A stretch of DNA of 64,000 nt from a virus: IMG/VR virus record IMGVR_UViG_3300047548_001122, positions 62,001 through 126,000 of that record; one strand, given 5' to 3'. The position numbers were made by a program, and so were the translations under genes. This document shows positions 8,843 to 28,021 of this stretch, piece after piece; positions within the stretch are counted from its first letter, which is position 1, and the number at the start of each line of letters is the position of its first letter. Under the pieces are notes generated by a model, which ran no database searches, was not told the DNA's origin, and was given only the letters and a program-made list of their open reading frames with translations.

Positions 8843-9580
8843 ATGATTGGAATTATTGGTTATGGTATGGTTGGACAAGCCGTTGAATACGGCTTTTCCA
8901 AAACTAAAGTTTTTGTTTGTGATCCGAAATATAATCACGTAACAATTAAGGGTCTTTGTTTATTAAATCCAGAGGCCATATTTGTATGTGTGCCTACCCC
9001 TACAGACGATACAAATTATTCATTATTGACTTCAATATTGGACGAAATCGTATTGATGAATTATCAAGGCATTGTTATTGTAAAGTCTACAATATTGCCT
9101 CAATATTTGTCCAAATATGATATAGTGTATAATCCTGAATTTCTATCCAGATCAACTTCAAAAGAAGATTTCGTCAAACCTCCTTTTATATTACTGTCTG
9201 GAAAAAAATCTGAAAAAGTAACAGAACTCTATAAAAAATATTCTATTGTTGATACTAGTAAAATATTTACTACCGATATCAATACTGCATCTTTTATAAA
9301 GTATACCATGAATAGTTTTTATGCGACAAAAGTAACGTTCATGAATACCATGTATGATATTGCTAAAGAGTTAAACGTTGATTATAATGAAGCAATATCA
9401 ATTCTATCTCAACACCCCTGGATGGGTTCTCATCATTTTCAAGTACCTGGACCTGATGGTAAAAGAGGATTTGGAGGTCCTTGTTTACCGAAAGACACAA
9501 AGGTTTTAGCTGAAAAATTTGATAAAGAATTATTAAAGACTGTTTTAAAAATAAACGAACAATATAGAAATATTATATAG
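8843..9580 (+). CDS. UDP-glucose/GDP-mannose dehydrogenase-like protein, short form
   Basis: 245 residues. The N-terminal Rossmann motif GYGMVG (residues 6-11) should bind NAD. FVCVPTP, IVKSTILP and NPEFLSR follow in the order seen in UDP-glucose 6-dehydrogenases, then a helical region with KYTMNSFYATKVTFMN, and finally GFGGPCLPKD with the catalytic Cys at residue 214. Cellular members run to about 390-450 residues; the C-terminal UDP-sugar-binding domain is absent here, so the substrate is uncertain. The expected reaction is a two-step NAD-dependent oxidation of a nucleotide sugar to the uronic acid. It starts 4 bases after the fibre gene and precedes the radical SAM cassette. It could supply an activated sugar for the nearby glycosyltransferases, which is inference. 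Confidence 0.82.
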   Translation: MIGIIGYGMVGQAVEYGFSKTKVFVCDPKYNHVTIKGLCLLNPEAIFVCVPTPTDDTNYSLLTSILDEIVLMNYQGIVIVKSTILPQYLSKYDIVYNPEFLSRSTSKEDFVKPPFILLSGKKSEKVTELYKKYSIVDTSKIFTTDINTASFIKYTMNSFYATKVTFMNTMYDIAKELNVDYNEAISILSQHPWMGSHHFQVPGPDGKRGFGGPCLPKDTKVLAEKFDKELLKTVLKINEQYRNII

Positions 9581-9617: not shown

Positions 9618-10724
9618 ATGGTTGTAGACATTAACGTAACTAGTATCTGTAATTTGGCTTGTACGTATTGTTCAGAAGGATTTGAATGTGGATTGTCAAC
9701 AGAATTTGAAGAAAATACTTCTTTAACGTTGGATAATGTTGAAGAATTTATGGCAAAAATTTCCGATCCAAAGAAAGATGTTTATTTTTGGGGTGGTGAA
9801 CCTTTTGTTAATTGGGATTTTTGCAGGGGAGTTATAGAGAAATTTAAACACGACCCTGGTTTCTCATTCTTCTTCTATACGAATGGTACATACTTGAAAA
9901 GATATCTAAAAGATTTAGTTAGAATTCATAATGAAATACCAGGTAGATTAAAACTACAAGTTTCGTATGATGGAAAGCCAGTAAATGACATTGCTCGCGT
10001 AACCAAATCTGGTACGCCATCTTCAGCTTTAGTTAAAGCGAATTACATTGCAGCTAAAGAAGCCGGATTAAACATTTCGTTGAAATCAGTTTTAACTTCA
10101 GATAATTTTCATTTGATTTATGAAGCGTTTTTAGATGTAATTGAAATGGACAAAAATTATTTTCCTACACCAGACTTATACAGTCAGTTAACTGAGGAAG
10201 AATTTATGCCCAAGTTAGAGGTATTAAAAGAGGGATTGAAAAAGATAGCAAAACACATTTATGAAAATAAGTTACCACCTGAAAAATTTGGATGGTTTCA
10301 ACAGTCTAGAGCTCTCTGTGCCGCAGGTATTAATTATTTGAGTGTAGATTTGAATGGAGATTTAAGTCCTTGTCACGGGTGCATGTATAAAGAATCACAT
10401 TCACATAAATTAGGAAACATTTTTAAAGTTGCTGATTTGGATGCTTTAATTGAAGAAAAATCTACAATGTATAAAAATGCTTTAAAAAATCAACCATTGG
10501 ATTGTATGAATTGCGACAGTCAATTCTGTATGAAATGTAATGCTGCAACATATGAGAAAAGTGAGAAAGAAACTTATTTGGAAAAGTGGAGCGATCACAC
10601 CGCAAACTGGCAAGTATGTAAAGTTTTTAAAACAAACGAAATTGTGCATCACGCTTTAAGAACTGCTTTGAAGAGTTACAAAAAACCTGTAATTAAAATC
10701 CAAGCAGAACAATGCACAGTTTAA
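9618..10724 (+). CDS. Radical SAM protein with SPASM-like C-terminus (1 of 7)
   Basis: 368 residues. The CNLACTYC motif puts three Cys at residues 11, 15 and 18 (CX3CX2C), which hold the [4Fe-4S] cluster that cleaves S-adenosylmethionine. GGEP at 59-62 is the SAM-binding motif. The C-terminal third carries more cysteines (CAAGINYLSVDLNGDLSPC and CMNCDSQFCMKC), the layout of SPASM or twitch domains that bind auxiliary clusters in peptide- and protein-modifying enzymes such as anSME and sactipeptide maturases. A strong AGAGGAG site supports the ATG. The next gene, 9 bases downstream, is another radical SAM protein, so the two may act together. The substrate is unknown; a peptide or protein is favoured by the SPASM-like region. 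Confidence 0.85.
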   Translation: MVVDINVTSICNLACTYCSEGFECGLSTEFEENTSLTLDNVEEFMAKISDPKKDVYFWGGEPFVNWDFCRGVIEKFKHDPGFSFFFYTNGTYLKRYLKDLVRIHNEIPGRLKLQVSYDGKPVNDIARVTKSGTPSSALVKANYIAAKEAGLNISLKSVLTSDNFHLIYEAFLDVIEMDKNYFPTPDLYSQLTEEEFMPKLEVLKEGLKKIAKHIYENKLPPEKFGWFQQSRALCAAGINYLSVDLNGDLSPCHGCMYKESHSHKLGNIFKVADLDALIEEKSTMYKNALKNQPLDCMNCDSQFCMKCNAATYEKSEKETYLEKWSDHTANWQVCKVFKTNEIVHHALRTALKSYKKPVIKIQAEQCTV

Positions 10725-10733
10725 GGAGAAAAA

Positions 10734-11858
10734 ATGTTTACATTGGAAGTTAGTGTTACGGAAAAATGTAATCTTGGTTGTCCATATTGTTATGTGGCAA
10801 ACAGACCAACATGGATGACAAAAGAAGTTTTCGATCAAGGTATGGAAGACCTCACGAAACTAATGCAAAAATCTGGCGATAAAGATTATCATGTTAGTTT
10901 TTTCGGGGGTGAACCTTTACTTAATTGGGAATTAATTACTCATGCAGTACCGTATTTAAAATCGGATAAAAGATGTAAGGGTATTAATATCATTACTAAC
11001 TTAACGATGATTGATGAAGAGAAGGCCAACTATTTGAAAGAAAATAGTGTTGGTGTTTCTTGGTCGTTTGATGGTATGAGTTCAAATGAAAGTAGACCAC
11101 TTTTACCTTTACTCGAAAATACTAACCCAGAAACCGGCGAATTGTTTGATGGCATTCTTTCAATGTATGAATATAAAAAGGATATCATAAAAGGTTTGAC
11201 AAATGGTTGCAAGGTTATGATATGGCCAGGCAATACAAAAGACATGAAAGAAAATTTTGAATTTTTGCTCGAATGGGGAATAGAACATCCAGATTTCAGT
11301 ATTGTTCGTGATGATGTTTGGACAGCAGATGACATAAGACAGTTTAGATATGAATGTGAAAGATTAGCAGACTTTTGGATAGAACAACTGAAAGCGGGAA
11401 AACCCTGTTCTGTTGGATTTCTTAGACTTGCAATCTTAGACACATTATACGGATTGGTAAAAGGTAAAAGACCATTCGGATGTTTTGCTGGAGCAAATGG
11501 TGGAGTTTTAATGAGTTCTGGTGAATTTTATCCTTGTGCTAGATTTGCATCTAAAAAGATCATGAAGATGGATGAACAATATAACTTTAAATATTATCAA
11601 GACATTTTTAATCCTAAGAATTTCGATAAGTGTGAACCGTGTGATTTGAAACAAGTTTGCAATGCTGGTTGCACTTATTCTCAAATCATGAATGATAACA
11701 AACCATTGGATAGTATTTGTGAATTATTTCACATCTATTATGAACAAGCTATAAGAGTTGTGAATGAATGTAGAGATATTCCAACATTTCAAGATTTAGT
11801 GCTGCATTTTATTGAAAGTGTTGGTGTGGAAAATGAAGGATTGGAATGTAGGAATTAA
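10734..11858 (+). CDS. Radical SAM/SPASM protein (2 of 7)
   Basis: 374 residues with CNLGCPYC (Cys 12, 16, 19) and GGEP (58-61). The C-terminus contains CFAGANGGVLMSSGEFYPC and then CEPCDLKQVCNAGC followed by a later Cys in SICELFH. The CX2CX5CX3C spacing is the classic SPASM signature for auxiliary Fe-S clusters. Proteins of this design modify peptides or proteins: formylglycine formation, thioether bonds, or other Cys, Tyr or Asn chemistry. It has a good AAGGAG ribosome site and is separated from the first radical SAM gene by only 9 bases. Among the seven it is the clearest maturase-like member. A role on the Cys-rich product encoded 1.6 kb downstream is a hypothesis. Confidence 0.88.
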   Translation: MFTLEVSVTEKCNLGCPYCYVANRPTWMTKEVFDQGMEDLTKLMQKSGDKDYHVSFFGGEPLLNWELITHAVPYLKSDKRCKGINIITNLTMIDEEKANYLKENSVGVSWSFDGMSSNESRPLLPLLENTNPETGELFDGILSMYEYKKDIIKGLTNGCKVMIWPGNTKDMKENFEFLLEWGIEHPDFSIVRDDVWTADDIRQFRYECERLADFWIEQLKAGKPCSVGFLRLAILDTLYGLVKGKRPFGCFAGANGGVLMSSGEFYPCARFASKKIMKMDEQYNFKYYQDIFNPKNFDKCEPCDLKQVCNAGCTYSQIMNDNKPLDSICELFHIYYEQAIRVVNECRDIPTFQDLVLHFIESVGVENEGLECRN

Positions 11859-11859
11859 T

Positions 11860-12189
11860 ATGAAAAAATTAAAAAGTTTATTGTCAATACCTATAAAGGT
11901 AGAAATGCAACCTGTTGAACATGCTTCAAATAGAGTTATAACGGTTGATGAACTATCAAATCAAATAGAAGAGGCTAGAAAAGGTAAAGCTAAAGTTGAT
12001 AGTAAGTATGTTGGATACAATGAAGCTGGCCATTTATTTGATTACAAATTTGATTATGTTAAATTTTTAGATAATATGAGTTTCATAATTAAAGAGGCTA
12101 AAAAAAGACCTAGAGATAACAGATATAAGAGTGAACATAAATTAATGTTGTCGAACGCCGGCAAAGGGCAAGATATACAAAAAGAATAA
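11860..12189 (+). CDS. Small basic hypothetical protein between radical SAM genes
   Basis: 109 residues from the ATG at 11860, one base after the previous stop. An earlier in-frame ATG at 11812 would overlap the radical SAM gene by 47 bases and add a sequence unlike the rest, so it was not chosen. The protein is rich in Lys and Glu, with MKKLKSLLSIPIKVEMQPV at the start, a central EEARKGKAKVDSKYVGYNEAGH and a basic C-terminal third. No known domain is recognised. Its stop overlaps the ATG of the third radical SAM gene by one base, so translation is coupled. It could be an adaptor, a peptide-recognition partner or a substrate, but nothing in the sequence decides this. Confidence 0.6.
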   Translation: MKKLKSLLSIPIKVEMQPVEHASNRVITVDELSNQIEEARKGKAKVDSKYVGYNEAGHLFDYKFDYVKFLDNMSFIIKEAKKRPRDNRYKSEHKLMLSNAGKGQDIQKE

Positions 12190-13055
12190 TGGCTATAAAA
12201 GATTTTTTTGTTTTTCATGAATCCAATAAACCAATAATTACAAATTCTGGTGTTAATGTTTTATACTTCACAAATAAATGCAACTTAGCCTGCACTTATT
12301 GTTATGAGGATTTGCCTGGAAGACCCCCTCAAATTTTAAGTAAAGAGGATATTGTTCGTATTGTAGACGAAGTTATTTTGAGAGAGGATCCTGAAAAGCA
12401 AACACTATTTGTTTTATTTGGTGGTGAACCCACTCTAGAATGGGAAAATGTTTGTTTTGCTATGGAATATGCCTATAATAAAAAGAAAAACGTACACTTT
12501 AATATGACAACAAATGGTATAAAATACCTAAGTGAAAAATTTATAATTGAGACTAAAAATAACTTTTTCTACAAAAATAGAATGTTGTCTATAGATGTTA
12601 GTTTTGATGGCATCGGCAATAAAGACAGAATTTTCCATAATGGAAAAGAATCAACTTCTTCAATGTTGACTGTTTTTAAGAATTTGTTAGTAAATAACTT
12701 TAGATATAGACTCAGATATACTGTACATAAATATAATGTTAAATGGTGTTATGATGACATACACAAATTAATAAAGACGTTTAAACCTGAAAGATTGATA
12801 ACTTCAGTTGCATGGGACACTCTAGGTGAAGATGATTTAGTTAAGTTACAGGAAGTAAAAGACAAGTTTAGAGATGACTGGATAAATAGAAGAATAGACG
12901 TTCCAGTATGTGATATATTTTGTGACATGTGTAACGGATGCTCGGAGACAAAAGATATCAAAACCTATTTTACCAATGAAGGTAATGTAACAACTCATAA
13001 AAATTTTGAGAGTACGCCCAAATTTAAGGATTTTAAAGAAAAGGTAATGTTATGA
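12189..13055 (+). CDS. Radical SAM protein (3 of 7), short C-terminus
   Basis: 288 residues. CNLACTYC gives Cys 31, 35 and 38, and GGEP lies at 78-81 after a hydrophobic strand (LFVLFGG). The rest of the core follows, including MTTNGIKYL and VSFDGIG, typical of the radical SAM barrel. Near the end CDIFCDMCNGC forms a tight Cys cluster (CX3CX2CX2C) that may bind one auxiliary Fe-S centre, in place of a full SPASM domain. It overlaps the small gene before it by one base and the next gene by four, so all are probably co-expressed. The substrate is unknown. Confidence 0.85.
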   Translation: MAIKDFFVFHESNKPIITNSGVNVLYFTNKCNLACTYCYEDLPGRPPQILSKEDIVRIVDEVILREDPEKQTLFVLFGGEPTLEWENVCFAMEYAYNKKKNVHFNMTTNGIKYLSEKFIIETKNNFFYKNRMLSIDVSFDGIGNKDRIFHNGKESTSSMLTVFKNLLVNNFRYRLRYTVHKYNVKWCYDDIHKLIKTFKPERLITSVAWDTLGEDDLVKLQEVKDKFRDDWINRRIDVPVCDIFCDMCNGCSETKDIKTYFTNEGNVTTHKNFESTPKFKDFKEKVML

Positions 13056-13441
13056 ATAAAGATGAAATCGTAATTGAAAAATTGAAAAATATTGCTCAGA
13101 TTATCAATGATATCAAAGAGTATGACCAACCTCTTGCTGACTTAATTTGGATGGGTTTCGATACTTCTATGAGTTTAGCTAAATCCGTTTATGAAAATTC
13201 CGAGAAAGATGAACCTATTGATATTTCGGTTTATTTGGAACAAATGTGTGAAGTTCTAGGTATAAATCTGGAACAATTAATTTTAGATATAGTTCAGAAA
13301 AATAACACGAATGAAGTTGCTGAAAAAGAACCTGACACTGAAACTCTAGATTTCATAACTTCTGACATGGATGATTATGAAAAATTTTTGGCCAAAAATT
13401 CAGCGAAAAATAATCTAGATTTCTTATCTAAGGAAATATAA
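13052..13441 (+). CDS. Acidic hypothetical protein between a radical SAM gene and the Cys-repeat gene
   Basis: 129 residues, helical and acidic, with no recognised domain. It starts in a four-base ATGA-type overlap with the radical SAM gene and ends 4 bases before the gene for the CTCNCNY-tailed protein. The N-terminal 75 residues look like amphipathic helices (EKLKNIAQIINDIKEY, SVYLEQMCEVLGINLEQLIL); the last 50 are acidic and likely flexible. Its position between a modifying enzyme and its possible substrate makes a chaperone or recognition partner conceivable. This rests on position alone. Confidence 0.6.
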   Translation: MNKDEIVIEKLKNIAQIINDIKEYDQPLADLIWMGFDTSMSLAKSVYENSEKDEPIDISVYLEQMCEVLGINLEQLILDIVQKNNTNEVAEKEPDTETLDFITSDMDDYEKFLAKNSAKNNLDFLSKEI

Positions 13442-13445
13442 AAAA

Positions 13446-14045
13446 ATGGCTAGTTTAGGACAATTCTTTAATACCGATTCGCCGGTGTATGGCCAGACAA
13501 AACCGGCTGGTGTTCACAGAAAAATATCGAAAACATTTCAAGGAACTTTTGCAACTAATGCCGTTTCTTACGGTCTTTCTGAAGTAAATACCAGTACTAC
13601 TATATCATCATCGTTTTTCAATTCTTTAATTACTAATGCAAAATCTGAAAGAGTTAGAAGGGGAAAGGCAGATGCTAATATAAGTGCCGTTTCATCAGGC
13701 ACAGCTATATCAGCTACCACTCTTAATGATATTAGAAATGCATATAATGTTACAGATGATAGGGTAAATCAAGCGTGGGACGATTGGAGTGGAGCTAATG
13801 CTAATTCTCCAACCGAAACAGCTTTACCAACAAAAACAGTTTGGGGTCCTACAGCAGCTCCATCTAATGTTCCAGGAAGCGTATCTTCAGGTACAAAAAT
13901 TACCGCGAGTGTTATCAATAGTTTAGTGAATTCTTTAAATGCAGCAGGAGCAGTTTGTACCTGTAATTGTAATTACTGTACCTGTAACTGTAACTATTGC
14001 ACTTGTAACTGTAATTATTCCTGTACGTGTAATTGTAATTATTAA
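13446..14045 (+). CDS. Virion-like protein with a CTCNCNY cysteine-repeat tail
   Basis: 199 residues. The N-terminal 170 residues are Ser/Thr/Asn-rich with three related segments (ISSSFFNSLITNA, ISATTLNDIRNAYN, ITASVINSLVNSLN), a style seen in phage tail and capsid decoration proteins. Residues 171-199 are four copies of CTCNCNY, with a Ser inserted before the last, giving 12 Cys in 29 residues. The repeat reaches the stop codon. Such a tail could bind metal or form thioether or disulphide crosslinks. Three radical SAM genes lie directly upstream in the same operon, so this is the best candidate substrate in the window; that link is inference. A good AAGGA site supports the ATG. No other gene here carries the tail. 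Confidence 0.7.
   Translation: MASLGQFFNTDSPVYGQTKPAGVHRKISKTFQGTFATNAVSYGLSEVNTSTTISSSFFNSLITNAKSERVRRGKADANISAVSSGTAISATTLNDIRNAYNVTDDRVNQAWDDWSGANANSPTETALPTKTVWGPTAAPSNVPGSVSSGTKITASVINSLVNSLNAAGAVCTCNCNYCTCNCNYCTCNCNYSCTCNCNY
13956..14042 (+). repeat. Four-copy 21-base tandem repeat encoding CTCNCNY
   Basis: Units at 13956-13976, 13977-13997, 13998-14018 and 14022-14042, with one extra Ser codon (TCC) at 14019-14021. The amino acid sequence of each unit is identical while third codon positions differ (TAC/TAT, ACC/ACT/ACG, AAT/AAC, TGT/TGC). This suggests selection on the protein and not a fresh DNA-level expansion. Confidence 0.95.
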
Positions 14046-14047
14046 AA

Positions 14048-14518
14048 ATGTTATTTGATTTAAATCACTTGGAAGAAACTGAAATGTCTTACATTAGACA
14101 CTTCAACCATGGTATGATATTAGGTATGTGGTTGTTTTTTTGTTTTTGCGCTTCTCTTGTTTATTGTTTTTTTCCAATTAAATTCTTACAAGATTTTATA
14201 AGTGAAAGAATAAAAACAATGTATCATGGATTAATGTTGAGATGGTTCGAAGATGATAATTTTAATCCACTCAAACCAAAAAAAGATGCAATAAGAGAAA
14301 AAGTCTATAAAAAAGAATATATTGAAAATATACAAAAAGGATTAGTTAAACCATTTGGTAATTTCAGAACATCTTATGAACTGTTAGTTACTTCTTTAGC
14401 GAGTGTAATACATTCTACTATACCTCAGATATTAGTTCATGTTGCAGCTATGAATGTGGTAAGGTTGTATTTTAGTATTAAAATTGTGGAGAAATCATAT
14501 GAAGCAAAACAAAGTTGA
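14048..14518 (+). CDS. Small membrane protein, possibly DUF6356-like
   Basis: 156 residues with two hydrophobic stretches: about residues 23-50 (GMILGMWLFFCFCASLVYCF) and a weaker one around 115-140 (SLASVIHSTIPQILVHVAAM). The segment ETEMSYIRHFNHG just before the first resembles the start of DUF6356, a bacterial membrane family of unknown function, but the match is from memory and weak. A polar stretch separates the two segments. It starts 3 bases after the Cys-repeat gene and overlaps the next gene by 20 bases. It could anchor a process at the host membrane; no catalytic motif is seen. Confidence 0.6.
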   Translation: MLFDLNHLEETEMSYIRHFNHGMILGMWLFFCFCASLVYCFFPIKFLQDFISERIKTMYHGLMLRWFEDDNFNPLKPKKDAIREKVYKKEYIENIQKGLVKPFGNFRTSYELLVTSLASVIHSTIPQILVHVAAMNVVRLYFSIKIVEKSYEAKQS

Positions 14519-14903
14519 AATTGAAGGTGTAGATGCAAACACTTACGCAGGAAAAGCTATTCAAGCGTGTAAGTTAAAAGCTAGAGGTATATTTGGAGAC
14601 GAACTTTTAACATTTAAATTGTTGGATTTTGTGAGTTTTTTCTTATTAAATAATGAATTGTCATCCAAAGGATATACTATTACGGAAAATAACAGAGAAG
14701 AAGTTTATATTAAAATTATAGAAACTGGCGACATTCAATTGATTAATGATTTGGAAAAATACATTTCTCTTAGAGATTCTTTAAAAGAATTGGAAAAAAA
14801 GAAAGAAGAATATTATAATATTGTGGAAAAGTTGTCTAGTTTACAAGATTTCAATGATGAAGTCAGTATAAATGAAATAGTAGAGTCGTATTTAAGGAGA
14901 TAA
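14499..14903 (+). CDS. Hypothetical protein with C-terminal coiled coil
   Basis: 134 residues from the ATG at 14499, which follows GGAG (14487-14490) at good spacing. An upstream TTG at 14484 is in frame but lacks a ribosome site. Residues 1-90 are mixed alpha/beta with no recognised domain; residues about 85-115 (ISLRDSLKELEKKKEEYYNI) form a likely coiled coil. It overlaps the membrane protein gene by 20 bases and is followed 2 bases later by the next gene, so it belongs to the same operon. The role is unknown; small coiled-coil proteins of this kind are often structural in T4-like phages. Confidence 0.6.
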   Translation: MKQNKVEIEGVDANTYAGKAIQACKLKARGIFGDELLTFKLLDFVSFFLLNNELSSKGYTITENNREEVYIKIIETGDIQLINDLEKYISLRDSLKELEKKKEEYYNIVEKLSSLQDFNDEVSINEIVESYLRR

Positions 14904-14905
14904 AC

Positions 14906-15892
14906 TTGTTAATACTTTTAAATGGACCTAGAAGTGTACATTTAAGATCCATATCTAGAGCTATTATAGATCAACAAAAAAATTGGAGTTTTAAAGATTA
15001 TACCGTTAAATATAAAAATAACGGTTTTATTGTTTTGGATTCCAACCAAAACAACGTCTATTGTAATAATCCGGAGTTGGGAAACTTAAACCACGACATT
15101 TTTATAAGTTGTTTTACTCAAGAAGAGTTTGATGAGAAATCATTATTGATCGATGAGATAAACGATTTTAATAACAAAATAGATGAAGATATAAAGAAAA
15201 ACCATTTTATAGATTCTTGGCCAGTTACAGATTTTTCCTTTTTATTCGATCACGATTTTAATTTCGAACAAGATGAAACCTATGAAAAAATATTAGAAAC
15301 TTATAGAAACAGTTCAGATACGGATGATATTTGGACAGGAAGATTTTCCATTTCTTTTATAGAAAAACTAAAATCTGATATAGGATCAGAAAATTTAAAA
15401 ATCATAAACTTTATAAGAAATCCAAGTTCTTGTGCATTTACGAACCATTTGGATGAAAATTGTAAAATCGAACATGCAAACATATCAATTTTAAATATGT
15501 TCCTTGTCTCAAAATTACCCGAAACAATTAATGTGAAATATGAAGAATTTTTGAATGATAAAAAGTTTTCTTTGGACGGTTTGGAAATACATTTACCTGA
15601 ATTGATTGTGAATCATAATGGTTTAATTAGTGAGTATGAATTTTCAAAATATGATTCCGATTTAATAAATGATGAAATCATTAATAAACTGAATGATGTT
15701 TATTCCAATTTTAATTTAGTGGAAGTTATGAAAGATGGGTTAAGTGTAGACAATACCTCAGAAATTTACAATGAATTTTTCACGAATTTACAACAAAGAA
15801 TAAAAGAAGATATAAAACAAAGTATACCAGAAAACTTTTTTGTTGAATTGAATTATTCACCCCTATCACTAGAACAAATTATATCGAAATAA
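14906..15892 (+). CDS. Hypothetical protein, weakly sulfotransferase-like
   Basis: 328 residues starting at TTG 14906, supported by AAGGAGA (14893-14899) 6 bases upstream. The N-terminus LILLNGPRSVHLRSISRAII has the look of a phosphate-binding loop followed by a helix; a later KIINFIRNPSSC and VKYEEFL recall the 3'-phosphate-binding strand and following motif of sulfotransferases. The rest is acidic and poorly conserved in appearance. If correct it would transfer sulfate from PAPS to a sugar or protein, fitting the surrounding sugar-modifying genes. The similarity is faint and the assignment is tentative. An unrelated nucleotide-binding protein is the main alternative. Confidence 0.5.
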   Translation: MLILLNGPRSVHLRSISRAIIDQQKNWSFKDYTVKYKNNGFIVLDSNQNNVYCNNPELGNLNHDIFISCFTQEEFDEKSLLIDEINDFNNKIDEDIKKNHFIDSWPVTDFSFLFDHDFNFEQDETYEKILETYRNSSDTDDIWTGRFSISFIEKLKSDIGSENLKIINFIRNPSSCAFTNHLDENCKIEHANISILNMFLVSKLPETINVKYEEFLNDKKFSLDGLEIHLPELIVNHNGLISEYEFSKYDSDLINDEIINKLNDVYSNFNLVEVMKDGLSVDNTSEIYNEFFTNLQQRIKEDIKQSIPENFFVELNYSPLSLEQIISK

Positions 15893-15898
15893 AATTTT

Positions 15899-16777
15899 GT
15901 GTTTTTATTGAACTTGAGGAAGTATGATTTAGTTATTACCACATCATACAATTTTAAATTTGGTATTTGTGGTCATTTATTTGAAATGATAGAATATTAT
16001 TGGGCAATAAAAAATTGGACAAATCTAAATCCATGCATATTATTATCCGATGGAACAACTTTAGAAGAGTTTAATAAAGCTCTAGAAAACAAATATGATG
16101 ATTTGGTGATTGAAAATGTAATATATCATCCTTTCCCCAAAGTATTAATAACAAAAAATCTATTAATAGTTGACGGTTCTTCTCGATTTGATAGAACCGA
16201 AATATATTCGGACAACTTTTTCTTACTACGTTGTCACGAAAATGAATACGATTTTTACTCCAAAAATAAATCAAATTGTTACCTGTTTCAAGATTTTGAA
16301 ATCTATGAAGATATACCGGACAAAATAACAGTAATAGATTATAAGAAAAAAATATTATACAATAAATTTAAAAAAATTGAAGGCGCAGTTGATGATGCCG
16401 CAATGTTTTATTTGACTGACGTTAGTAGATTCATGTCCGAAGATGATGTTAAACACGTTATACAAAAATACCAATTTCCAGATAATGTAATTTTTACCAA
16501 TAAAACAGAACTGTATAAATCAATTAAAACTTATAAAGTTCCCGTTGAGAATATGTGGAATAAATTTTCAAAATATGTTTATACGAAATTGCCTGGAAAA
16601 AGAGATTGTTCAAGTAGATTCATTCTGGAATGTATGCATTATGGAAAAGAAGTTATCTACGACATAGATTACTTTGACAAATCTTTAGAAGTTAGAAAAA
16701 AAGATGGTGTCACCAACACTTCTTTAGGAAAAGGCGATCTTTTGGTCGAATATCTAAATGAACGAATTAAGCGTTAA
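15899..16777 (+). CDS. Hypothetical protein, possible GT-B glycosyltransferase
   Basis: 292 residues from GTG 15899. The N-terminal half alternates hydrophobic strands and helices (YDLVITTSYN, CILLSDGTT, LLIVDGSSRF), as in a Rossmann-like fold. The C-terminal part contains PGKRDCSSRFILECMHYGKEVIYD, like the end of some phage glycosyltransferases in which a conserved Arg/Glu region binds the nucleotide sugar. No family-defining motif is certain. The gene overlaps the next radical SAM gene by 20 bases and a clear GT2 enzyme follows, so a sugar-transfer role fits the context, but it remains an inference. Confidence 0.5.
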   Translation: MFLLNLRKYDLVITTSYNFKFGICGHLFEMIEYYWAIKNWTNLNPCILLSDGTTLEEFNKALENKYDDLVIENVIYHPFPKVLITKNLLIVDGSSRFDRTEIYSDNFFLLRCHENEYDFYSKNKSNCYLFQDFEIYEDIPDKITVIDYKKKILYNKFKKIEGAVDDAAMFYLTDVSRFMSEDDVKHVIQKYQFPDNVIFTNKTELYKSIKTYKVPVENMWNKFSKYVYTKLPGKRDCSSRFILECMHYGKEVIYDIDYFDKSLEVRKKDGVTNTSLGKGDLLVEYLNERIKR

Positions 16778-17750
16778 AAAAATTAACATAGATTATGATA
16801 GGTCTATAAACAATAGAGCTAAATTGGATACAGGTAAACTATGTAATTATAAATGCGAATTCTGTTATTATAAAAATCAACTAAGTGAGAGAGATGAACT
16901 AGATAAAATTTATCAAAGAGTGGATTATTTGTTAAGTTATGGAATAACACAAATTGATTTGAGTGGTGGTGAAAGTAGTGTAGAACCTAATTGGTTTAAA
17001 ATATTAGAATACTGTCAGAATAAGTTCGAAAGAATAAGTTGTTTAAGTCACGGAGGAAAATTTAGTGATAAAGAATTTATTCAAAAGAGTTATGAATTAG
17101 GACTGAGAGAGATATTATTCAGTTTACACTGTACTGAAGAATCGATACACGATAAAATAGTTGGTAAAAAAGGTGCTTTCAAAAATTTATTGAAAGCGAT
17201 AGAAAATTGTCATGATCTTGGTATTGAAGTTAGAATTAATACAACCATATACCACGAAAACTATGATAAGATAAACACCGATTTTATCAAAAGTTTAAAT
17301 CCTTCACAAATAAATTTTATAGCTTTGAATTATTGGCAAGATAATAGTGATTTTTCTACGATAGATTATGAAAAAGTTTGTTCATATGTTTCAAATTATA
17401 TCAAAAAGTTGCATGATAAAATAGAAGTTAATGCCAGATATTTTCCGTATTGCTTCATGCCAGACGAAGAACGTTTTATTAAAAATCACTATCATCATAT
17501 CTATGATATGAAAGATTGGAATAAAGCTGTATATAATGGTCAGTTAGATACCTCTATTACTTATACACACAAACAGAAAGTGGAACAATCATTTGATGAA
17601 GCTGAAAGGTTGCGTCTTTATACTTGTTTCAAAAGTAACGAATGTTTGAATTGCAAATATTTTTATGTCTGTGATGGAATAGAAAAACAATTGAAAGGTA
17701 AAATTCAACCTAAACCCATATTAGGTGAAAAGATAAAGGTCGTATGGTAA
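16758..17750 (+). CDS. Radical SAM protein (4 of 7), GGES variant
   Basis: 330 residues. LCNYKCEFCYY gives Cys 29, 33 and 36; the SAM-binding motif is GGES (70-73) where the others in this cassette have GGEP. LSLHCTEE-like strands (ILFSLHCTEESIHDKIVG) and RINTTIYHENYDKI match the later part of the radical SAM barrel. The C-terminus has CFKSNECLNCKYFYVC, a Cys cluster suggesting one auxiliary cluster. Overlaps of 20 and 7 bases with its neighbours tie it to a possible glycosyltransferase before it and a GT2 enzyme after it. This placement would also suit action on a sugar or nucleotide sugar. The substrate is unknown. Confidence 0.85.
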   Translation: MNELSVKKINIDYDRSINNRAKLDTGKLCNYKCEFCYYKNQLSERDELDKIYQRVDYLLSYGITQIDLSGGESSVEPNWFKILEYCQNKFERISCLSHGGKFSDKEFIQKSYELGLREILFSLHCTEESIHDKIVGKKGAFKNLLKAIENCHDLGIEVRINTTIYHENYDKINTDFIKSLNPSQINFIALNYWQDNSDFSTIDYEKVCSYVSNYIKKLHDKIEVNARYFPYCFMPDEERFIKNHYHHIYDMKDWNKAVYNGQLDTSITYTHKQKVEQSFDEAERLRLYTCFKSNECLNCKYFYVCDGIEKQLKGKIQPKPILGEKIKVVW

Positions 17751-18415
17751 ATCCTGATTTATCGATACTTATATTGACACACAAAAGACCTTTGTTATTT
17801 GAAAGGTGTTTAACTTCGGTTATGAATCAATATTCCGAAAATATAGAGGTTTTGGTTAATAACGATAGTTCAGATATAAAAGAAATCTTTTCGGAAAATG
17901 TTAAATATTTTTATGAGAAATTTGATAGTATTTCCGAAATATACGAATTTTTGTTGAAGATGTCGAAGGGAAAATACATTTACTTTTTAGAAGATGACGA
18001 TTACTTAACGGAAGATTTTTTAAATCAGAAGTTGGATTCGGATATAATTGCTGGGAATTATTGTCCTACATATAAACCTAATAAAATTTTAGATTTAATG
18101 AATATGTTCCAAGATTCTTTATTTTTCGATAGAGTAGATTTTATAAAAAAACTAAATTTGGAACATTTACAATTAGGACAGTTTATATTTAAAAAAGATG
18201 TTATAGAAGATTTCGTTTTTGAAAAAGATAATAATGTACATAACGATATCAAACTTGTATATCATGCTTCACTGAAATGTAAAACCTTTAAAACAACCAG
18301 TAAGTTTTTTTATTATCAGACTATAGACGGTAACGACAATATATCTTTTCCCAATACTATAAAAAATATATCGGTTACCGCATCTATGGATTTTTTAAAG
18401 AACTATGAAATATAG
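17744..18415 (+). CDS. Family 2-type glycosyltransferase
   Basis: 223 residues. The N-terminus LSILILTHKRPLLFERCLTS is the nucleotide-sugar-binding start of GT-A family 2 enzymes, followed by VLVNNDSSD and then FLEDDDYLTEDF, where the DDD cluster (84-86) should bind the metal and sugar diphosphate. The acceptor-binding C-terminal half is short. It would transfer a sugar from an activated donor to an unknown acceptor in the cytoplasm. It overlaps both flanking radical SAM genes (7 and 11 bases), so production is coupled. Bases 18405-18415 are shared with the next gene. Confidence 0.8.
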   Translation: MVNPDLSILILTHKRPLLFERCLTSVMNQYSENIEVLVNNDSSDIKEIFSENVKYFYEKFDSISEIYEFLLKMSKGKYIYFLEDDDYLTEDFLNQKLDSDIIAGNYCPTYKPNKILDLMNMFQDSLFFDRVDFIKKLNLEHLQLGQFIFKKDVIEDFVFEKDNNVHNDIKLVYHASLKCKTFKTTSKFFYYQTIDGNDNISFPNTIKNISVTASMDFLKNYEI

Positions 18416-19316
18416 CATACAACATCATAAAGATCAAGACCCAGATCATATTAACGTACATTGGGATAGCTTAACTATTTGTCAGTTAAAGTGTTCTTAT
18501 TGTTATGCTAGAAATGAGTATGGAAAAGAATGGGGTAAAATATCCAGTAAAACAATAATTGATGCTGTTTTGGATGCTCTGAATCGTAGTAGTTTAAATT
18601 TCAATTTAGGTTTGTTGGGTGGTGAACCAACTTTAGGTCCCCATTATTATTACATACTTGATTCGATTAGTAAAATGGAAAAGTTTAATTGGGTATATGT
18701 TGTAACTAATGGTGAAAAAGACTTGACAACTCATCCACATTATGATAGACTGGCTTTTCTTTTTAGTTATCATCCGGCAGATTGTACTGATCGAGATAGG
18801 TTTTTAAACAATATTCGACATATGTTGGATAGAGGTTATAAGTGTAAAGTGAATGTCATGCTCCACCACGATAAAAACTTATGGCCTAAGATTAAAGAGA
18901 TGTTTGAAATTTTGGAGAAAATTCCAAACCTTAAAGTTCATCCACATTTCCTTTACGGTAACAGTATCACCAAGTTGTTCAATTATAGAAAAGATTTTTG
19001 GGAATATTTTTCATTTTTGGAAAACTATGAAAAAGAATTGAAATATGATGATGACCTTTTTAATGATTATATCATATTCAGAGATAAATTAACGAACTTT
19101 AAAGGTTGGAGTTGTTATAATAACAATTATGAAATTGATGTTAGAGGTAACGTAGTTAAATTTTGTATGCCAAAAACAGATAATGTTAACCTCGTTCGTG
19201 ATAGGGATTTCTTTAAAAATATATCCAAAACTGTTCCTATGATTTGTCCACATAAAGCTTGCAATTGCGATGGACTCTTGAAACAATTAAAAGTAAAAAA
19301 TGAGCCAGATAGTTGA
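18405..19316 (+). CDS. Radical SAM protein (5 of 7)
   Basis: 303 residues. LTICQLKCSYCYARN supplies Cys 26, 30 and 33, and GGEP lies at 72-75. VVTNGEKDL, KCKVNVMLHH and the C-terminal CMPKTDN, ICPHKACNCDG follow; the last Cys group may hold an extra cluster. The C-terminal part is short compared with SPASM enzymes. It overlaps the GT2 gene by 11 bases and the next radical SAM gene by 17. It shares the general plan of the other members but no two are close copies, so each probably has its own step or substrate. Confidence 0.84.
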   Translation: MKYSIQHHKDQDPDHINVHWDSLTICQLKCSYCYARNEYGKEWGKISSKTIIDAVLDALNRSSLNFNLGLLGGEPTLGPHYYYILDSISKMEKFNWVYVVTNGEKDLTTHPHYDRLAFLFSYHPADCTDRDRFLNNIRHMLDRGYKCKVNVMLHHDKNLWPKIKEMFEILEKIPNLKVHPHFLYGNSITKLFNYRKDFWEYFSFLENYEKELKYDDDLFNDYIIFRDKLTNFKGWSCYNNNYEIDVRGNVVKFCMPKTDNVNLVRDRDFFKNISKTVPMICPHKACNCDGLLKQLKVKNEPDS

Positions 19317-20058
19317 ATGGGAAATTACACTTAAATGTAATTACAAATGCACTTACTGTACGAATTTGGATCCAAGTATACGACCTGAACTCGATGAAAG
19401 TAAAATAAGAGAATTTATTGCGAACTTAGGACAAAAGTATCCTGGTGTGGAAGTATTTATTTTTGGTGGTGAACCTTTTGTTCACCCTAAGATAGAATTC
19501 ATTATAAAAACTTTTAATGAACACAAAATACCTTTTGTAATTCAAACCAACTTCAGTAATTATAGTCGAGAAAAGATTCGAAAAATAACTGATCCTTTTA
19601 AGATCAATATTAGTGTTCATCCCACCGAAACTTCTATAGATGATATTGTGGAAGGACTCAAGAGCACAAACGTCAATATAAAAACGATAGATGTTATGTA
19701 TACTGGTCAAGATGCAATAAAATATTATTTTGCAGTTAAAAAAGCTATCGAACATGACAATTTATTTTTAACTCCAATTACAGATTTTGGAGATGGTTAT
19801 AGTGACAATTTACTTCTACAATACCTTGCATTGAAGAAAAAAACGGTATATAAAAATATAATTAAATTTGAAAATGTAAAAAGATTGGATCGTCAACGTA
19901 GTGAAATTTGGGCAGATCCTAATTTTAAAACTTTTGGAAAGCCCTGTTTATACAAAGATAAATATTTTTTATATTCTCCCAATTTAGAATTGTATAATTG
20001 TTGTTATAGAATAAAAGTGGACAAATTGTGTCCGAAAACAAAATGTTTTTTAATGTGA
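19300..20058 (+). CDS. Radical SAM protein (6 of 7), compact
   Basis: 252 residues, the smallest of the set. LKCNYKCTYC supplies Cys 13, 17 and 20; GGEP is at 56-59. The end carries KPCLYKDKY, LYNCCYRIKVDKLCPKTKC, a dense Cys group likely to hold an auxiliary cluster. The 17-base overlap with the previous gene and 6-base gap to the next place it in the same transcript. Its size is close to that of minimal radical SAM enzymes, such as activases or queuosine-type QueE, but the VFIFGGEP context and C-terminal Cys group do not identify a known reaction. Confidence 0.84.
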   Translation: MSQIVEWEITLKCNYKCTYCTNLDPSIRPELDESKIREFIANLGQKYPGVEVFIFGGEPFVHPKIEFIIKTFNEHKIPFVIQTNFSNYSREKIRKITDPFKINISVHPTETSIDDIVEGLKSTNVNIKTIDVMYTGQDAIKYYFAVKKAIEHDNLFLTPITDFGDGYSDNLLLQYLALKKKTVYKNIIKFENVKRLDRQRSEIWADPNFKTFGKPCLYKDKYFLYSPNLELYNCCYRIKVDKLCPKTKCFLM

Positions 20059-20064
20059 TGTTAT

Positions 20065-20880
20065 ATGAGATATCTTTTAGCTGGCGCTTTCAGTAAATCA
20101 ATACCGATAATAAAATTTTTAACACATAAGTTGGTAGACAACACCAAACTTGTGGTTTATGATGGTGTGAATAAATGTAAATGGAATGGCGGAAGAATTA
20201 ATCGGGATGTTTATTATAGTGATGCGTTAATAGACTATTACTATAGTAAAGATATCAGTATTGCTCTTACGATGAGTAATCATAAAATTGATTTATCGGA
20301 TGAAACAGGAAATCACCTGCTAGAAAAATTTCACAAAGAAGGTAATGCCTTAATTATTGTTAATGATGATTTAAGGCAATACGTCAGAAAAAACTTTCCC
20401 AAATACGATTTAATTTATAGTATTACTGGTATGGGTCTGTTAAACATTCCTTTACAAGATAGTGATATTGCTTGGTATAAAGACTTGGAAAGTAAGTATG
20501 ATTGGATTGTTCCGAGATTTGAACATGTATTTGATTCTAGAGCTTCGGAGTTAGATAGAAACAAATGGGAAGTTATGTTAAATGACACTTGCGTTTGGGG
20601 TTGTAAACATTGGGATGAACATTTCAAAGCAATCGCAGATGAAAATACCGCTGGTCGTCCATATAGTAAACAGGTAGAAGAATGTTGGTTGCCAAAATTT
20701 GATTTTAATAAAGATAGTAAATATCCTCCAATGGATATCAAACCAGAAAACATGCGTAAACTTTTGGACGTTGGTGTAAGAAGTTTTAAAATTACCGGTA
20801 GAGAAATGACAGATGATGAATATTATGGTGAATTGACGAGATTCATTAATCGAAGTTTAGAGGCATTAAAAAATGGATGA
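20065..20880 (+). CDS. U32-peptidase-like protein
   Basis: 271 residues. The middle and end recall the U32 family (UbiU/UbiV, RlhA, TrhP and relatives): WIVPRFEHVFDSRASELDR, MLNDTCVWGC with Cys 176 and 180, then Cys 207, and a C-terminal FKITGREMTDDEYYGEL close to the family's F-K-I-x-G-R end. U32 proteins bind an Fe-S cluster through several Cys and take part in hydroxylation or nucleotide modification, rarely true proteolysis. The N-terminus differs from typical members and may not be conserved. It lies between two radical SAM genes, so it may act in the same pathway. The assignment is moderate and the reaction unknown. Confidence 0.55.
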   Translation: MRYLLAGAFSKSIPIIKFLTHKLVDNTKLVVYDGVNKCKWNGGRINRDVYYSDALIDYYYSKDISIALTMSNHKIDLSDETGNHLLEKFHKEGNALIIVNDDLRQYVRKNFPKYDLIYSITGMGLLNIPLQDSDIAWYKDLESKYDWIVPRFEHVFDSRASELDRNKWEVMLNDTCVWGCKHWDEHFKAIADENTAGRPYSKQVEECWLPKFDFNKDSKYPPMDIKPENMRKLLDVGVRSFKITGREMTDDEYYGELTRFINRSLEALKNG

Positions 20881-21943
20881 CTGGAAAAAAATCAAAGTCG
20901 TTCGAAAAAAAGAGGACATGCAAGTTGGCCTAATTAAGCCAGAAAAAACTTATAATGTACTGAAAATAAATGACCAAGAAGGTAGACATATCGATTATTC
21001 TGTAACATTTAGAATAACCGAAGCTTGTGATTTGAAATGTAATTATTGCCATTGGCATAGTGGTAGACACTATTCTTTTGAAGATATTATTACTAGCATT
21101 GATAATCTTTTTGTGTTCTTCAAAAAACAGAAATTCAAAAGTGTTGTTTTTTATTATCACGGTGGAGAACCAACTCGACATCCTAAATGCGTTGATATTC
21201 TAAAGTATATACACCAAAAAGGTAAAGAAACTGGAATTATAGCATATAATGAAATGCAAACCAATTTAACGATTGGTGAAGAAAAATTAAAAGATATGTT
21301 GCCGTATTGCGACATGTTCAATGTGAGTTTTCACTATCTGGAGTTGAAGAGATTGAATAAACTCAAGAACTTTGATAGTAATTGGGAACTATTAAAAAAA
21401 TTAGGTATATCCATTCATAACATGGATATTATGATGGAGAATGTAGAAAGAGGTAATCGATGGTATCAAAACAAAGTTATAGAAATAATACCAGAAGAAT
21501 TTTATGAAAGAGTCAAATACTATCTAACATATGATAAAATTGTGAATAGTGAAATGATATACGGGTTCTGCCATTATGTTTATCCGGAAGATGTGGCAGA
21601 AAAACATATGGCATTTTATAGAGAACATAATAAAACTGAACAAAAATATGAAATCGATGGAAAAATATACACAACAAATGACTTGTTTAAATTAGGTGTT
21701 GATGCTCGAGGTTGGAAGTGTGCGGCAGGACAAGAAAGTATTACAATTAATGGTGATGGAAATGTTTTTAATTGTGGTATACACATGACGAATTATATAA
21801 GAGAAAGTGCTCCAGAAAAGCCATACACAAATTTAGTTCACGATGAGGCAGCTGTAACTAAAATGTCGATATTATATAAAACTGGAACTGTTTGTAGATG
21901 GGATTATTGTGGTGGCGATTTTTATTTGAGTAGAAAACCATGA
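20873..21943 (+). CDS. Radical SAM protein (7 of 7) with N-terminal extension
   Basis: 356 residues. A 50-residue leader precedes EACDLKCNYC (Cys 52, 56, 59); HGGEP is at 96-100. The C-terminus has KCAAGQESITINGDGNVFNC, the strand-loop pattern that opens a SPASM/twitch domain, and a final CRWDYCGGDFYLS. This supports one or more auxiliary clusters. It overlaps the U32-like gene by 8 bases and the next SDR gene by 4. The extension might bind a partner or substrate. No specific reaction can be read from the sequence. Confidence 0.85.
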   Translation: MDDWKKIKVVRKKEDMQVGLIKPEKTYNVLKINDQEGRHIDYSVTFRITEACDLKCNYCHWHSGRHYSFEDIITSIDNLFVFFKKQKFKSVVFYYHGGEPTRHPKCVDILKYIHQKGKETGIIAYNEMQTNLTIGEEKLKDMLPYCDMFNVSFHYLELKRLNKLKNFDSNWELLKKLGISIHNMDIMMENVERGNRWYQNKVIEIIPEEFYERVKYYLTYDKIVNSEMIYGFCHYVYPEDVAEKHMAFYREHNKTEQKYEIDGKIYTTNDLFKLGVDARGWKCAAGQESITINGDGNVFNCGIHMTNYIRESAPEKPYTNLVHDEAAVTKMSILYKTGTVCRWDYCGGDFYLSRKP

Positions 21944-22560
21944 AATGCGCTATAACAGGACATACTAGAGGATTAGGCAAATCTCTCTATAATCACTTTA
22001 AAGAAAAAGGATGGGAAGTAATTGGATTTAGTACAACCAATGGATATTTTTTACCTGATGCTTTAGAAAAAGTAATTGAAGAGTCGAATGGTTGCGATTT
22101 GTTCATCAACAATACATTTGCACAGGGACATCAAATCGATCTGTTACATGCTTTGAAATATAAGGTTAAAAATATGGTTGTTTGTGGATCGATTGCTAGA
22201 ACTGAACCATTAAACGAAATACTGTATGGTGATTATGTAGACATTAAAACCGAGTTAGCAAAGTCTTGTAATATTTTAAGTATCAGTAATGACAGTAGAT
22301 TAATGAATATATTACATTTGGATTTGGGATTTTTAGAAGGTAGTGTTGAAAACATTTTAGATCCTACAGAATTTATAAGTGATTATACAATAGGTTTTAA
22401 TGATGTAATCTCCGCAATTGAATTATGGTTGTTGCATCCTAAGATTAAACAAATTGAATTTTCCTGGAAATTAACTCCTTTTTTGGAAACTAGACTTAAA
22501 CGAGCCACAAATAATCCAGATTCATTAAATAAACTTTTATCTGACATAAATGAAGCGTGA
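21940..22560 (+). CDS. Short-chain dehydrogenase/reductase-like protein
   Basis: 206 residues. MKCAITGHTRGLGKSLYNHF carries the GxxxGxG nucleotide-binding turn of classical SDR enzymes (T-G-H-T-R-G-L-G). LFINNTFAQGH resembles the NNAG motif and MVVCGSIARTEP the catalytic Ser strand. The usual Tyr-x3-Lys pair is replaced by a less certain YVDIKTELAKS (Tyr then Lys with different spacing), so activity cannot be assumed. It could reduce or oxidise a sugar or small carbonyl compound using NAD(P). It overlaps the radical SAM gene before it (4 bases) and the transketolase gene after it (11 bases). Confidence 0.65.
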   Translation: MKCAITGHTRGLGKSLYNHFKEKGWEVIGFSTTNGYFLPDALEKVIEESNGCDLFINNTFAQGHQIDLLHALKYKVKNMVVCGSIARTEPLNEILYGDYVDIKTELAKSCNILSISNDSRLMNILHLDLGFLEGSVENILDPTEFISDYTIGFNDVISAIELWLLHPKIKQIEFSWKLTPFLETRLKRATNNPDSLNKLLSDINEA

Positions 22561-23278: not shown

Positions 23279-23735
23279 ATTCTTAAATCGTTATCCTGGT
23301 GAAGTTTATTTTTTACACTGTGATATGTGGAAATGGTTAGACTCGAACTATAAACAAATAAATTGTGGCGTACAAGAACCAAACATGGTTAACATTGCAG
23401 CAGGTTTGGCCAGCCAAGGTAAAAAAGTGATTATATACGGTGTAGCTGGATTTGTGATTTATAAAAGTTATGAACAAATAAAACTTAACATAAAAGGTTG
23501 GGCAGAAAAATACGGAAGTATAATTTTTGTAAATGCGGGTGCTAATGGAGCCTATAAAATATGTGGCAGGGGACATTTGTTAGATGATGATGAACAACTA
23601 ATGAATTCTCTCGGTATTGATTTTTATGATCCAATTGACACTTCAACCTTTATAAGAAATGTTAAAGATGGACTAAAAAGTCCTGGTGTAAGATATCTTA
23701 GACTTGGTTGGGACAACGAAGTATGGAAAAAATAG
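23259..23735 (+). CDS. Transketolase pyrimidine-binding half, lacking the C-terminal domain
   Basis: 158 residues matching the pyrimidine-binding (central) domain of transketolase. NCGVQEPNMVNIAAGLASQGKK contains the Glu (residue 40) that activates thiamine diphosphate, followed by VIIYGVAGFVIYKSYEQIK. The third, C-terminal domain found in cellular enzymes is absent, as in some split or sugar-biosynthetic transketolase-like proteins. It starts inside the end of the N-terminal gene in another frame (20-base overlap). Either a natural two-subunit enzyme or a frameshift could explain this; the clean ends favour two genes. It ends 12 bases into the next gene. Confidence 0.78.
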   Translation: MRQQLHKFLNRYPGEVYFLHCDMWKWLDSNYKQINCGVQEPNMVNIAAGLASQGKKVIIYGVAGFVIYKSYEQIKLNIKGWAEKYGSIIFVNAGANGAYKICGRGHLLDDDEQLMNSLGIDFYDPIDTSTFIRNVKDGLKSPGVRYLRLGWDNEVWKK

Positions 23736-27673: not shown

Positions 27674-27677
27674 ACAA

Positions 27678-27685: not shown

Positions 27686-27706
27686 TATTAGATAGGAGAT
27701 TTTAAG

Positions 27707-28021
27707 ATGTTTAATGTAACAGAAGCTGCAATACAAGAAATCAAACAGTATTTAGATGAAGAGAACAAGTATTTAAGAGTTTATGTTGAGGGTGGAGGTT
27801 GTTCAGGATTTAGATATGGTTTTGATTTTGAAGAGAGTTTATCGGAAGATGATTTTGAGATCCCGTTAGATGGTTTTTCCATTGTTGTCGATTCTTTTAG
27901 TATGCAATATTTGGACACGGCCACTTTAAATTTTAAAGAGGATATTATGGGTCATACTTTTACCATAGAAAATCCAAATGCTCAGACTACATGTGGCTGC
28001 GGAAGTAGTTTTTCGGTATAA
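27707..28021 (+). CDS. A-type Fe-S cluster carrier (IscA/ErpA/HesB-like)
   Basis: 104 residues. YVEGGGCSGFRYGF gives Cys 32 and TTCGCGSSFSV gives Cys 96 and 98, the three conserved cysteines of A-type Fe-S carriers; the length is also standard (about 105-110). Such proteins accept [2Fe-2S] or assemble [4Fe-4S] clusters and pass them to apoproteins. Related genes occur in T4-like phages of marine bacteria. A GATAGGAG site precedes the ATG. It follows, on the other side of one gene, a cassette with seven radical SAM proteins that each need [4Fe-4S], but it may have its own transcript. Confidence 0.9.
   Translation: MFNVTEAAIQEIKQYLDEENKYLRVYVEGGGCSGFRYGFDFEESLSEDDFEIPLDGFSIVVDSFSMQYLDTATLNFKEDIMGHTFTIENPNAQTTCGCGSSFSV

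Follow-up and report, generated by a model that had tools for sequence, protein, structure and literature searches.

A radical SAM cassette of large phages and its candidate substrate, a tail-fibre-like protein with a cysteine-heptad array

The DNA analysed here, referred to as the window, comprises 64,000 nucleotides (bases 62001-126000 of a 214,237-base IMG/VR virus record). It carries a cassette with seven radical SAM (rSAM) genes, and within this cassette lies a gene for a fibre-like protein which ends in an array of cysteine-rich heptads. Three of the seven enzymes belong to a module that is shared by highly divergent phages; as this module nearly always sits beside such a cysteine-repeat tail-fibre-like protein, it probably remodels the phage's own particle rather than the metabolism of the host. 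We consider it likely that the cassette includes a RiPP-like virion-maturation module, in which two rSAM/SPASM enzymes (R1 and R2), helped by a third rSAM enzyme (R3), modify the cysteine array of the fibre-like protein, with thioether bonds being the likely product.

Composition and conservation of the cassette

All seven rSAM open reading frames (ORFs) listed in the first-pass annotation of this DNA were recovered, each exceeding the Pfam cut-off for Radical_SAM (29.5 bits) in protein and genome scans, and a scan of the entire 214,237-base record yielded no Radical_SAM match beyond these seven. Numbered by their ORF starts they are R1 (9618..10724, 368 aa), R2 (10734..11858, 374 aa), R3 (12189..13055, 288 aa), R4 (16758..17750, 330 aa), R5 (18405..19316, 303 aa), R6 (19300..20058, 252 aa) and R7 (20873..21943, 356 aa); these genes and all others given below with a coordinate range lie on the plus strand. 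As had been described, every translation contains CX3CX2C together with GGES (R4) or GGEP (all others), and motif and score place all seven in the radical SAM superfamily (PF04055). The previously given length range of 252-368 residues holds at its lower end and is exceeded by R2 at its upper end. That the seven proteins are not simple copies of each other was confirmed, with the best pairwise BLAST alignments showing about 22-37% identity over short stretches of mostly less than 180 aa; this divergence rules out a recent duplication as their origin.

The cassette begins with a gene for a UDP-glucose/GDP-mannose dehydrogenase (UGDH; 8843..9580; PF00984 and PF03721 over cut-off), which is found upstream of R1/R2 in many relatives, including Campylobacter phage CP220. 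It is followed by the core module of R1 and R2, of which R2 is the most widely conserved, and by R3, which has a single C-terminal CX3CX2CX2C motif. Two small conserved proteins are encoded on either side of R3, one at 11812..12189 (52-82% identity in relatives, without Pfam match; real start probably an internal ATG near 11859) and one at 13052..13441 (35-70% identity in relatives, no Pfam match over cut-off). Next to the gene of the fibre-like protein (13446..14045), the proposed substrate, are a DUF6356 gene that is present in part of the relatives (14048..14518; PF19883 over cut-off) and f14484 (14484..14903, true start probably 14499), encoding an all-helical partner (AF2 pLDDT 89.9) which follows the cysteine-array fibre in most relatives. 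Two further conserved cassette proteins, both found in relatives, are encoded at 14906..15892 (matching no family) and 15899..16777 (f15899; no family over cut-off), and the latter is, by the look of its sequence, a probable if unproven glycosyltransferase. The distal part of the cassette consists of R4 (HxsC/MoaA-like; phrog_27238, E 8e-76), which recurs in distant cassettes, a family 2 glycosyltransferase (GT2; 17744..18415; PF00535 over cut-off), R5 and the short R6, each with additional conserved C-terminal cysteines, a conserved protein at 20065..20880 (40-80% identity in relatives) and R7. The 20065 protein has a weak Peptidase_U32-like stretch (PF01136, E 0.0018, 18.1 bits, below the cut-off of 22.4) and no meaningful relative in the PDB. 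Further downstream the window encodes a halogenase (24318) and an A-type Fe-S carrier (Fe-S_biosyn; 27707..28021; PF01521, E 6.2e-20), a homologue of which is located directly 3′ of R2 in one relative (L021). The description of the cassette as virion-adjacent proved accurate, as fibre-like proteins flank it on both sides, followed by head-tail connectors, terminase, sheath and tube. Nothing in the data points to the marine origin that had been assumed; the IMG sample numbers of the relatives resemble those of what we take to be Lake Erie freshwater sets.

A scan of IMG/VR with R2 yielded 15 other contigs with the cassette. Nearly all of them share the order UGDH-R1-R2-(extra rSAM)-11812-R3-13052-13446-(14048)-14484-14906-15899-R4-GT2-R5-R6-20065, which persists even at protein identities of only about 40-75%; in one relative no UGDH was seen within the available stretch of the cassette. 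A search for the gene set in other phages had been proposed in the first-pass annotation, and its co-occurrence in a fixed order rules out both an assembly join between phage and host contigs and the possibility that the rSAM genes sit in unrelated contexts and never co-occur. The seven genes are, however, not an obligate set, as the relatives contain 8-10 rSAM genes per contig, with additional ones inserted at places in the cassette, and only R1, R2, R3 and R4-like members recur widely. Among 50,697 phage records, a search at the level of near-identical DNA returned no match to the cassette.

The cysteine-heptad array and its association with R1 and R2

The product of 13446-14045, a gene passed over in the first-pass annotation, is a protein of 199 aa with the C-terminus VCTCNCNYCTCNCNYCTCNCNYSCTCNCNY. 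Its array, (CTCNCNY)3-S-CTCNCNY, is encoded at 13956..14042 (record positions 75956-76042), where all four heptad matches of the record are located. Among the orthologues the N-terminal part is variable while the array is nearly constant, being invariant in the 15 aligned orthologues, and array proteins span about 140-530 aa. A comparison of 424 units from 51 distinct tails gave the consensus C-[T/P/x]-C-[N/D/Q]-C-N-[Y/F/H], with N, D or Q at position 4 in 97%, N at position 6 in 87% and Y, F or H at position 7 in 96% of the units; position 2 is T in 67% and otherwise P, I or others. The four heptads of the window use differing synonymous codons, and across 18 aligned four-unit arrays 1919 synonymous codon differences stand against 244 nonsynonymous ones. 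Hence the array is maintained as protein sequence, by purifying selection, and did not arise by recent slippage.

Several longer orthologues run from the array into SDxRLK...GVMAQELL..., a Peptidase_S74 domain over the Pfam cut-off (PF13884; 24-34 bits versus a cut-off of 22 bits in L009, L016, L021, L030, L130 and L133). S74 domains act at the C-terminus of tail spikes and fibres as chaperones that cleave themselves off. In these orthologues S74 begins right after the final tyrosine of the array, exactly where the copy in the window stops, and the Pfam search found no S74 in the window's own 13446 protein. In several relatives only the initial S74 residues (SDxRLKxxIxYM) stand at the end of the fibre, and the ORF after it resembles the remainder of the domain, which suggests a split chaperone. 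AF2 predicted the body of the fibre-like protein with partial confidence and assigned no fold to the unmodified array. Foldseek found no significant PDB match for this protein or for f14484, and a search against BFVD yielded only weak matches, the top one being a protein of an archaeal rod-shaped virus (E 3.5e-3). A tblastn search with the whole fibre protein returned no match, whereas a pattern scan did recover heptad proteins, probably because low-complexity filtering masks the array in tblastn.

When 2.9 million viral contigs (IMG/VR) were scanned with two patterns, the heptad was identified on 39 and then on 12 further contigs, and rSAM genes are present in 48 of these 51. Among the first 39, rSAM genes were found in 37 (3-16 each); for the 12 further contigs, four were counted (0, 3, 7 and 8 rSAM genes) and the other eight encode a relative of R2. 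The three heptad contigs without rSAM genes are fragments of 16.1, 22.7 and 43.8 kb, the longest of which counts against the array being the target. In the reverse direction, 77 loci were kept from a scan with an R2 profile, 66 of them with a cysteine-dense ORF, defined as an ORF other than an rSAM gene in which a stretch of 40 residues contains 8 or more Cys. Of the 43 loci left after dereplication, 35 have such an ORF no further than 4 kb from R1 or R2, and frequently it lies 0-15 bp from R1. By comparison, none of 244 ORFs across 80 terminase loci is cysteine-dense; these control loci are mostly short contigs and serve as background for cysteine-dense ORFs. For rSAM counts they give only a weak background, with 0-1 rSAM genes in eight contigs, 20-80 kb long, that need not include the cassette region. 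Most exceptions have a visible cause: three loci lie at contig ends (L084, L104, L127), another contig starts shortly upstream of R2 (L094), in L081 a deletion took the array and left S74, L120 has a variant slightly below the density threshold, and in the Campylobacter phages the array is located elsewhere in the genome. L106, with R1 and R2 and without an array in its 5.5 kb flank, is an exception without explanation and counts against the association.

Several distant R2/R1 pairs (25-30% identity) without the strict heptad have another cysteine array at the same place, such as CICNSDCSCNNVCSCHNDCGCNY ahead of S74 or CHSN repeats with no S74 behind them. Even between deeply diverged phages, R1 is found immediately upstream of the array gene, and R4-like and f15899 genes also lie beside distant arrays (e.g., L130, L133, L138). 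In a bacterial genome collection the heptad was found on two MAG contigs only (L065, L066). All these counts were taken from phages that are related to each other and do not represent independent events. A link between the R1/R2 module and the cysteine-array fibre-like protein is strongly supported by the sequence comparisons.

Enzyme families, proposed mechanism and alternatives

The suggestion of SPASM-type ends on at least two of the enzymes was substantiated for R1 and R2. R2 contains the full SPASM motif (CX9-15GX4C-gap-CX2CX5CX3C-gap-C) with all seven canonical cysteines (C250, GX4C268, C300, C303, C309, C313 and C329), which are invariant in 11 diverse members, and the spacing from C250 to G263 is within the SPASM range. 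R1 passes TIGR04085 (31.7 versus a cut-off of 27); in its clade of 40 the 3 + 7 cysteines are kept, one of them at 97%, with a slightly different SPASM spacing. The full motif is absent from R3-R7, and the cysteines of R3 are conserved in 92-100% of 36 sequences. For both R1 and R2 the nearest PDB entry is 5wgg (E 5.6e-32 for R2, followed by 8vpo and anaerobic sulfatase maturases), which we take to be CteB, a thioether-forming maturase. None of the seven proteins reaches an equivalog or maturase cut-off of NCBIfam, which counts against the maturase reading. The best models, all far under cut-off, are PapB (R1-R3 and R7), HxsC (R4), QueE (R5) and prokaryotic viperin (R6). Membership was thus rejected for the PapB ranthipeptide maturases (NF047865, cut-off 340 bits; R2 133.5, R3 81.3, R1 77.4, R7 41.6), for HxsC (TIGR03977, 267.9 bits; R4 only 77.4) and for prokaryotic viperin (NF038283, 180 bits; the seven score about 32-62 bits). 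The CX3D/E cross-link motif of PapB is absent from uninterrupted heptads, in which the residue at Cys + 4 is never N or D but C, Y or whichever residue occupies position 2 of the unit; PapB tolerates other spacings in vitro (PMC9413430). No N-terminal extension able to hold a fused recognition domain is present in R1-R3. In a quick FastTree analysis the R1, R2 and R3 homologues of most array phages, including those of the CP220 type, group with the genes of the window, with weak support (43) for the R2 clade.

We propose that R1 and R2, with the help of R3, would act on the array tail of the 13446-14045 protein. Since a cysteine-rich target adjoins SPASM maturases of the ranthipeptide type, carbon-sulfur cross-links from the array cysteines appear most likely, by which a flexible tail would become a rigid modified tip; Asn/Asp or the aromatic residue may be the partners of these thioethers, with the exact bond being tentative. 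Where present, the S74 chaperone would promote folding and then cleave itself off, so that the mature form of a putative virion protein would end in the array. The A-type Fe-S carriers may supply cofactor to the rSAM enzymes. R4-R7, the glycosyltransferases and other enzymes probably modify the same fibre or a linked glycan further, and the 20065 protein and perhaps the 24318 halogenase may add modifications. The earlier proposal of a multi-step pathway with a peptide, protein or carbohydrate target is therefore retained in its direction (multi-step, phage-carried, protein), whereas a carbohydrate target appears less likely for R1-R3. For these three at least, a virion protein is favoured over a carbohydrate or free metabolite because counterparts of the heptad protein lie beside R1/R2 in divergent phages.

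The same genes could also be read as auxiliary metabolism: the rSAM enzymes might cooperate with UGDH, glycosyltransferases, epimerases, transketolase halves and the halogenase in the synthesis of an uncommon sugar or surface glycan, or might enhance the metabolism of the host, as proposed for the Campylobacter phages (PMC2853527). Sugar enzymes do lie within and beside the cassette, and UGDH and f15899 recur with R1/R2. However, the tightest partner of R1/R2 is the cysteine-array protein and not a sugar enzyme, many loci retain R1, R2 and the array yet lack UGDH, and SPASM ends as in R1 and R2 are typical of rSAM enzymes that modify peptides or proteins, so that we regard this explanation as unlikely. 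A similarly improbable reading is that the array forms a metal-binding or disulfide-stiffened fibre tip without any need for the rSAM enzymes, which act elsewhere and are neighbours only as fibre regions collect cargo. T4 gp37 has a metal-binding HxH needle, and the dense CxCxC motifs could bind metal too. In pelagimyophages, rSAM cassettes have been described from fibre islands that are hypervariable (PMC7029224). Against it stand the bidirectional association, which extends across several array types, and the position of R1 directly upstream of the array gene over deep divergence.

Rated just short of an even chance, and overlapping with the maturation module proposed here, is an arrangement of two adjoining modules, with R1-R3 maturing the fibre and R4-R7 and the glycosyltransferases making a separate glycan or small molecule. 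It would fit with R1, R2 and R3 homologues recurring in array phages, including those of the CP220 type, whereas R5-R7 vary or are missing; it fits less well with R4-like and f15899 genes recurring beside distant arrays. This arrangement is a refinement of the proposed fibre maturation and does not contradict it.

Campylobacter phages, related systems and implications

Among the 50,697 phage records, 15 Campylobacter records contain a relative of R2 (37-38% identity), and the heptad protein was found in 15 Campylobacter records of the same phages, so that the linkage of heptad and rSAM genes extends to CP220, CPt10 and CP21. The heptad protein of IBB_35 carries the accession AEF56812. The T4-like group II phages CP220, CPt10 and CP21 (Firehammervirus) resemble the window in having many rSAM genes, R1-, R2- and R3-like genes, homologues of UGDH and f14484 and a cysteine-heptad protein. 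With 11 rSAM genes reported for CP220, the number of matches that was also obtained here, and 12 for CPt10 (PMC2853527), they are precedents for many rSAM genes in one phage, a finding that the first-pass annotation had taken to be unusual for one window. Unlike in the window, their rSAM-related genes are scattered over the genome and form no single ordered cassette. The heptad protein of CP220 adjoins rnlA (a tail-fibre attachment gene), with an R1-like rSAM gene at a distance of about 2 kb; UGDH and f14484 homologues are found near the R2-like gene, far off in the genome from the array, and this distance of the R2-like gene counts against the array being the target. Timms et al. presumed that the many rSAM genes boost host metabolism and, without connecting the two, described a 21-bp repeat within CPT_0180 (PMC2853527); this repeat encodes the heptad. 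CPT_0180 is missing from the 11 identified virion bands of CP220 (PMC2853527), which counts against the predicted virion location.

Other known systems share parts of the arrangement. The ranthipeptide/sactipeptide maturases PapB and CteB are similar in the SPASM motif of R2 and in a cysteine-rich target adjoining the enzyme, but R2 stays far below the PapB cut-off and the target here would be a fibre-like protein instead of a short precursor. Tail fibres and spikes with a C-terminal PF13884 resemble several array orthologues; they differ in that here a cysteine array directly precedes S74, that S74 is apparently split over two ORFs in some phages and that the window's copy has none. The host-recognition islands of pelagimyophages, T4-like aquatic phages, also combine rSAM and sugar enzymes beside tail-fibre genes, but were described as variable gene cassettes without a proposed substrate (PMC7029224). 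A literature search (open-access PMC full text) found no paper tying phage rSAM enzymes to a fibre substrate. While the parts are of known kinds, the combination of a multi-rSAM module with a cysteine-array tail-fibre-like protein thus appears to be undescribed.

Since 2010 the rSAM enzymes of Campylobacter phages have been ascribed to host metabolism with no substrate named, and the array protein is a concrete candidate for one in cultured phages. As no receptor had been identified as of 2024 for the flagellotropic Firehammervirus phages (PMC10877375), the array protein is a candidate, too, for the part that contacts the host. Whether phages build a multiply cross-linked, rSAM-modified cysteine-array fibre tip by a multi-enzyme RiPP-like, S74-released route, which would be common among large phages and shared by the cultured group II phages of Campylobacter, is in our estimate evenly balanced. 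If true, it would, as far as we know, be the first case of a virion protein matured by radical chemistry. The annotation of viral rSAM genes as "auxiliary metabolic genes" would then change, and these phages would be a possible source of new peptide-modifying enzymes.

Organisation of the S74 chaperone and the cysteine array

In five loci (L046, L048, L065, L101 and L120) the fibre protein with its cysteine-heptad array ends in the motif SDxRLKxxIxYM, and the ORF following it is similar to the remaining part of the Peptidase_S74 fibre chaperone domain (e.g., L046:539-1413 and L120:10308-11110). Judged from these sequences, the chaperone thus appears to be split over two ORFs in these loci. Two further loci, L018 (at ~12880) and L081 (at ~10876), exhibit a deletion of the array with the fibre start and the S74 part being kept. 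It is possible that the absence of the array in these two loci originates from a collapse of the repeat during assembly.

Further cysteine-rich proteins

The N-terminal part of the array protein encoded at L030:4351-5136 is also unusually rich in cysteine, a property in which its relatives differ. Campylobacter phage CP220 contains, at about 24.2 kb (L115:15842-16213), a second, distinct cysteine-rich ORF with repeats of the CxxC type (CVKCLDCESCDYCYNC...), which is annotated as hypothetical. A cysteine-heptad protein together with a radical SAM protein resembling R1 of the cassette was also found on a 161-kb contig (L066, PAAV01000055.1) from a Chloroflexi MAG bin, and this contig is possibly a phage contig within that bin. 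A metagenomic myovirus protein annotated as "Six-cysteine peptide SCIFF" (BFVD A0A8S5UTL8) matched the fibre protein very weakly in structure (E 4.2).

Conserved proteins and additional enzymes of the window

The protein encoded at 14484-14903, a homologue of which comes after the cysteine-array fibre in most relatives, is predicted to be all-helical (AF2 pLDDT 89.9), and a structure search with this model yielded no significant fold match in the PDB. Another conserved cassette protein (20065-20880) contains a weak Peptidase_U32-like stretch below threshold (E 0.0018); relatives of U32 include Fe-S hydroxylases.

A transketolase-like protein is split into two adjoining ORFs (22550-23735), comprising an N-terminal half and a pyrimidine-binding half. 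The minus-strand ORF at 27119-27736 resembles, as compared by eye at the level of translations, a polysaccharide-deacetylase-like protein encoded inside the L120 cassette (15250-15822). The protein encoded at 24318-25583 belongs to the flavin-dependent tryptophan-halogenase family (PF04820), with the viral halogenase VirX1 (6qgm) being among its PDB matches (E 1.1e-33). Possible targets of this protein could be tyrosine or tryptophan residues of a virion protein, or a small molecule.
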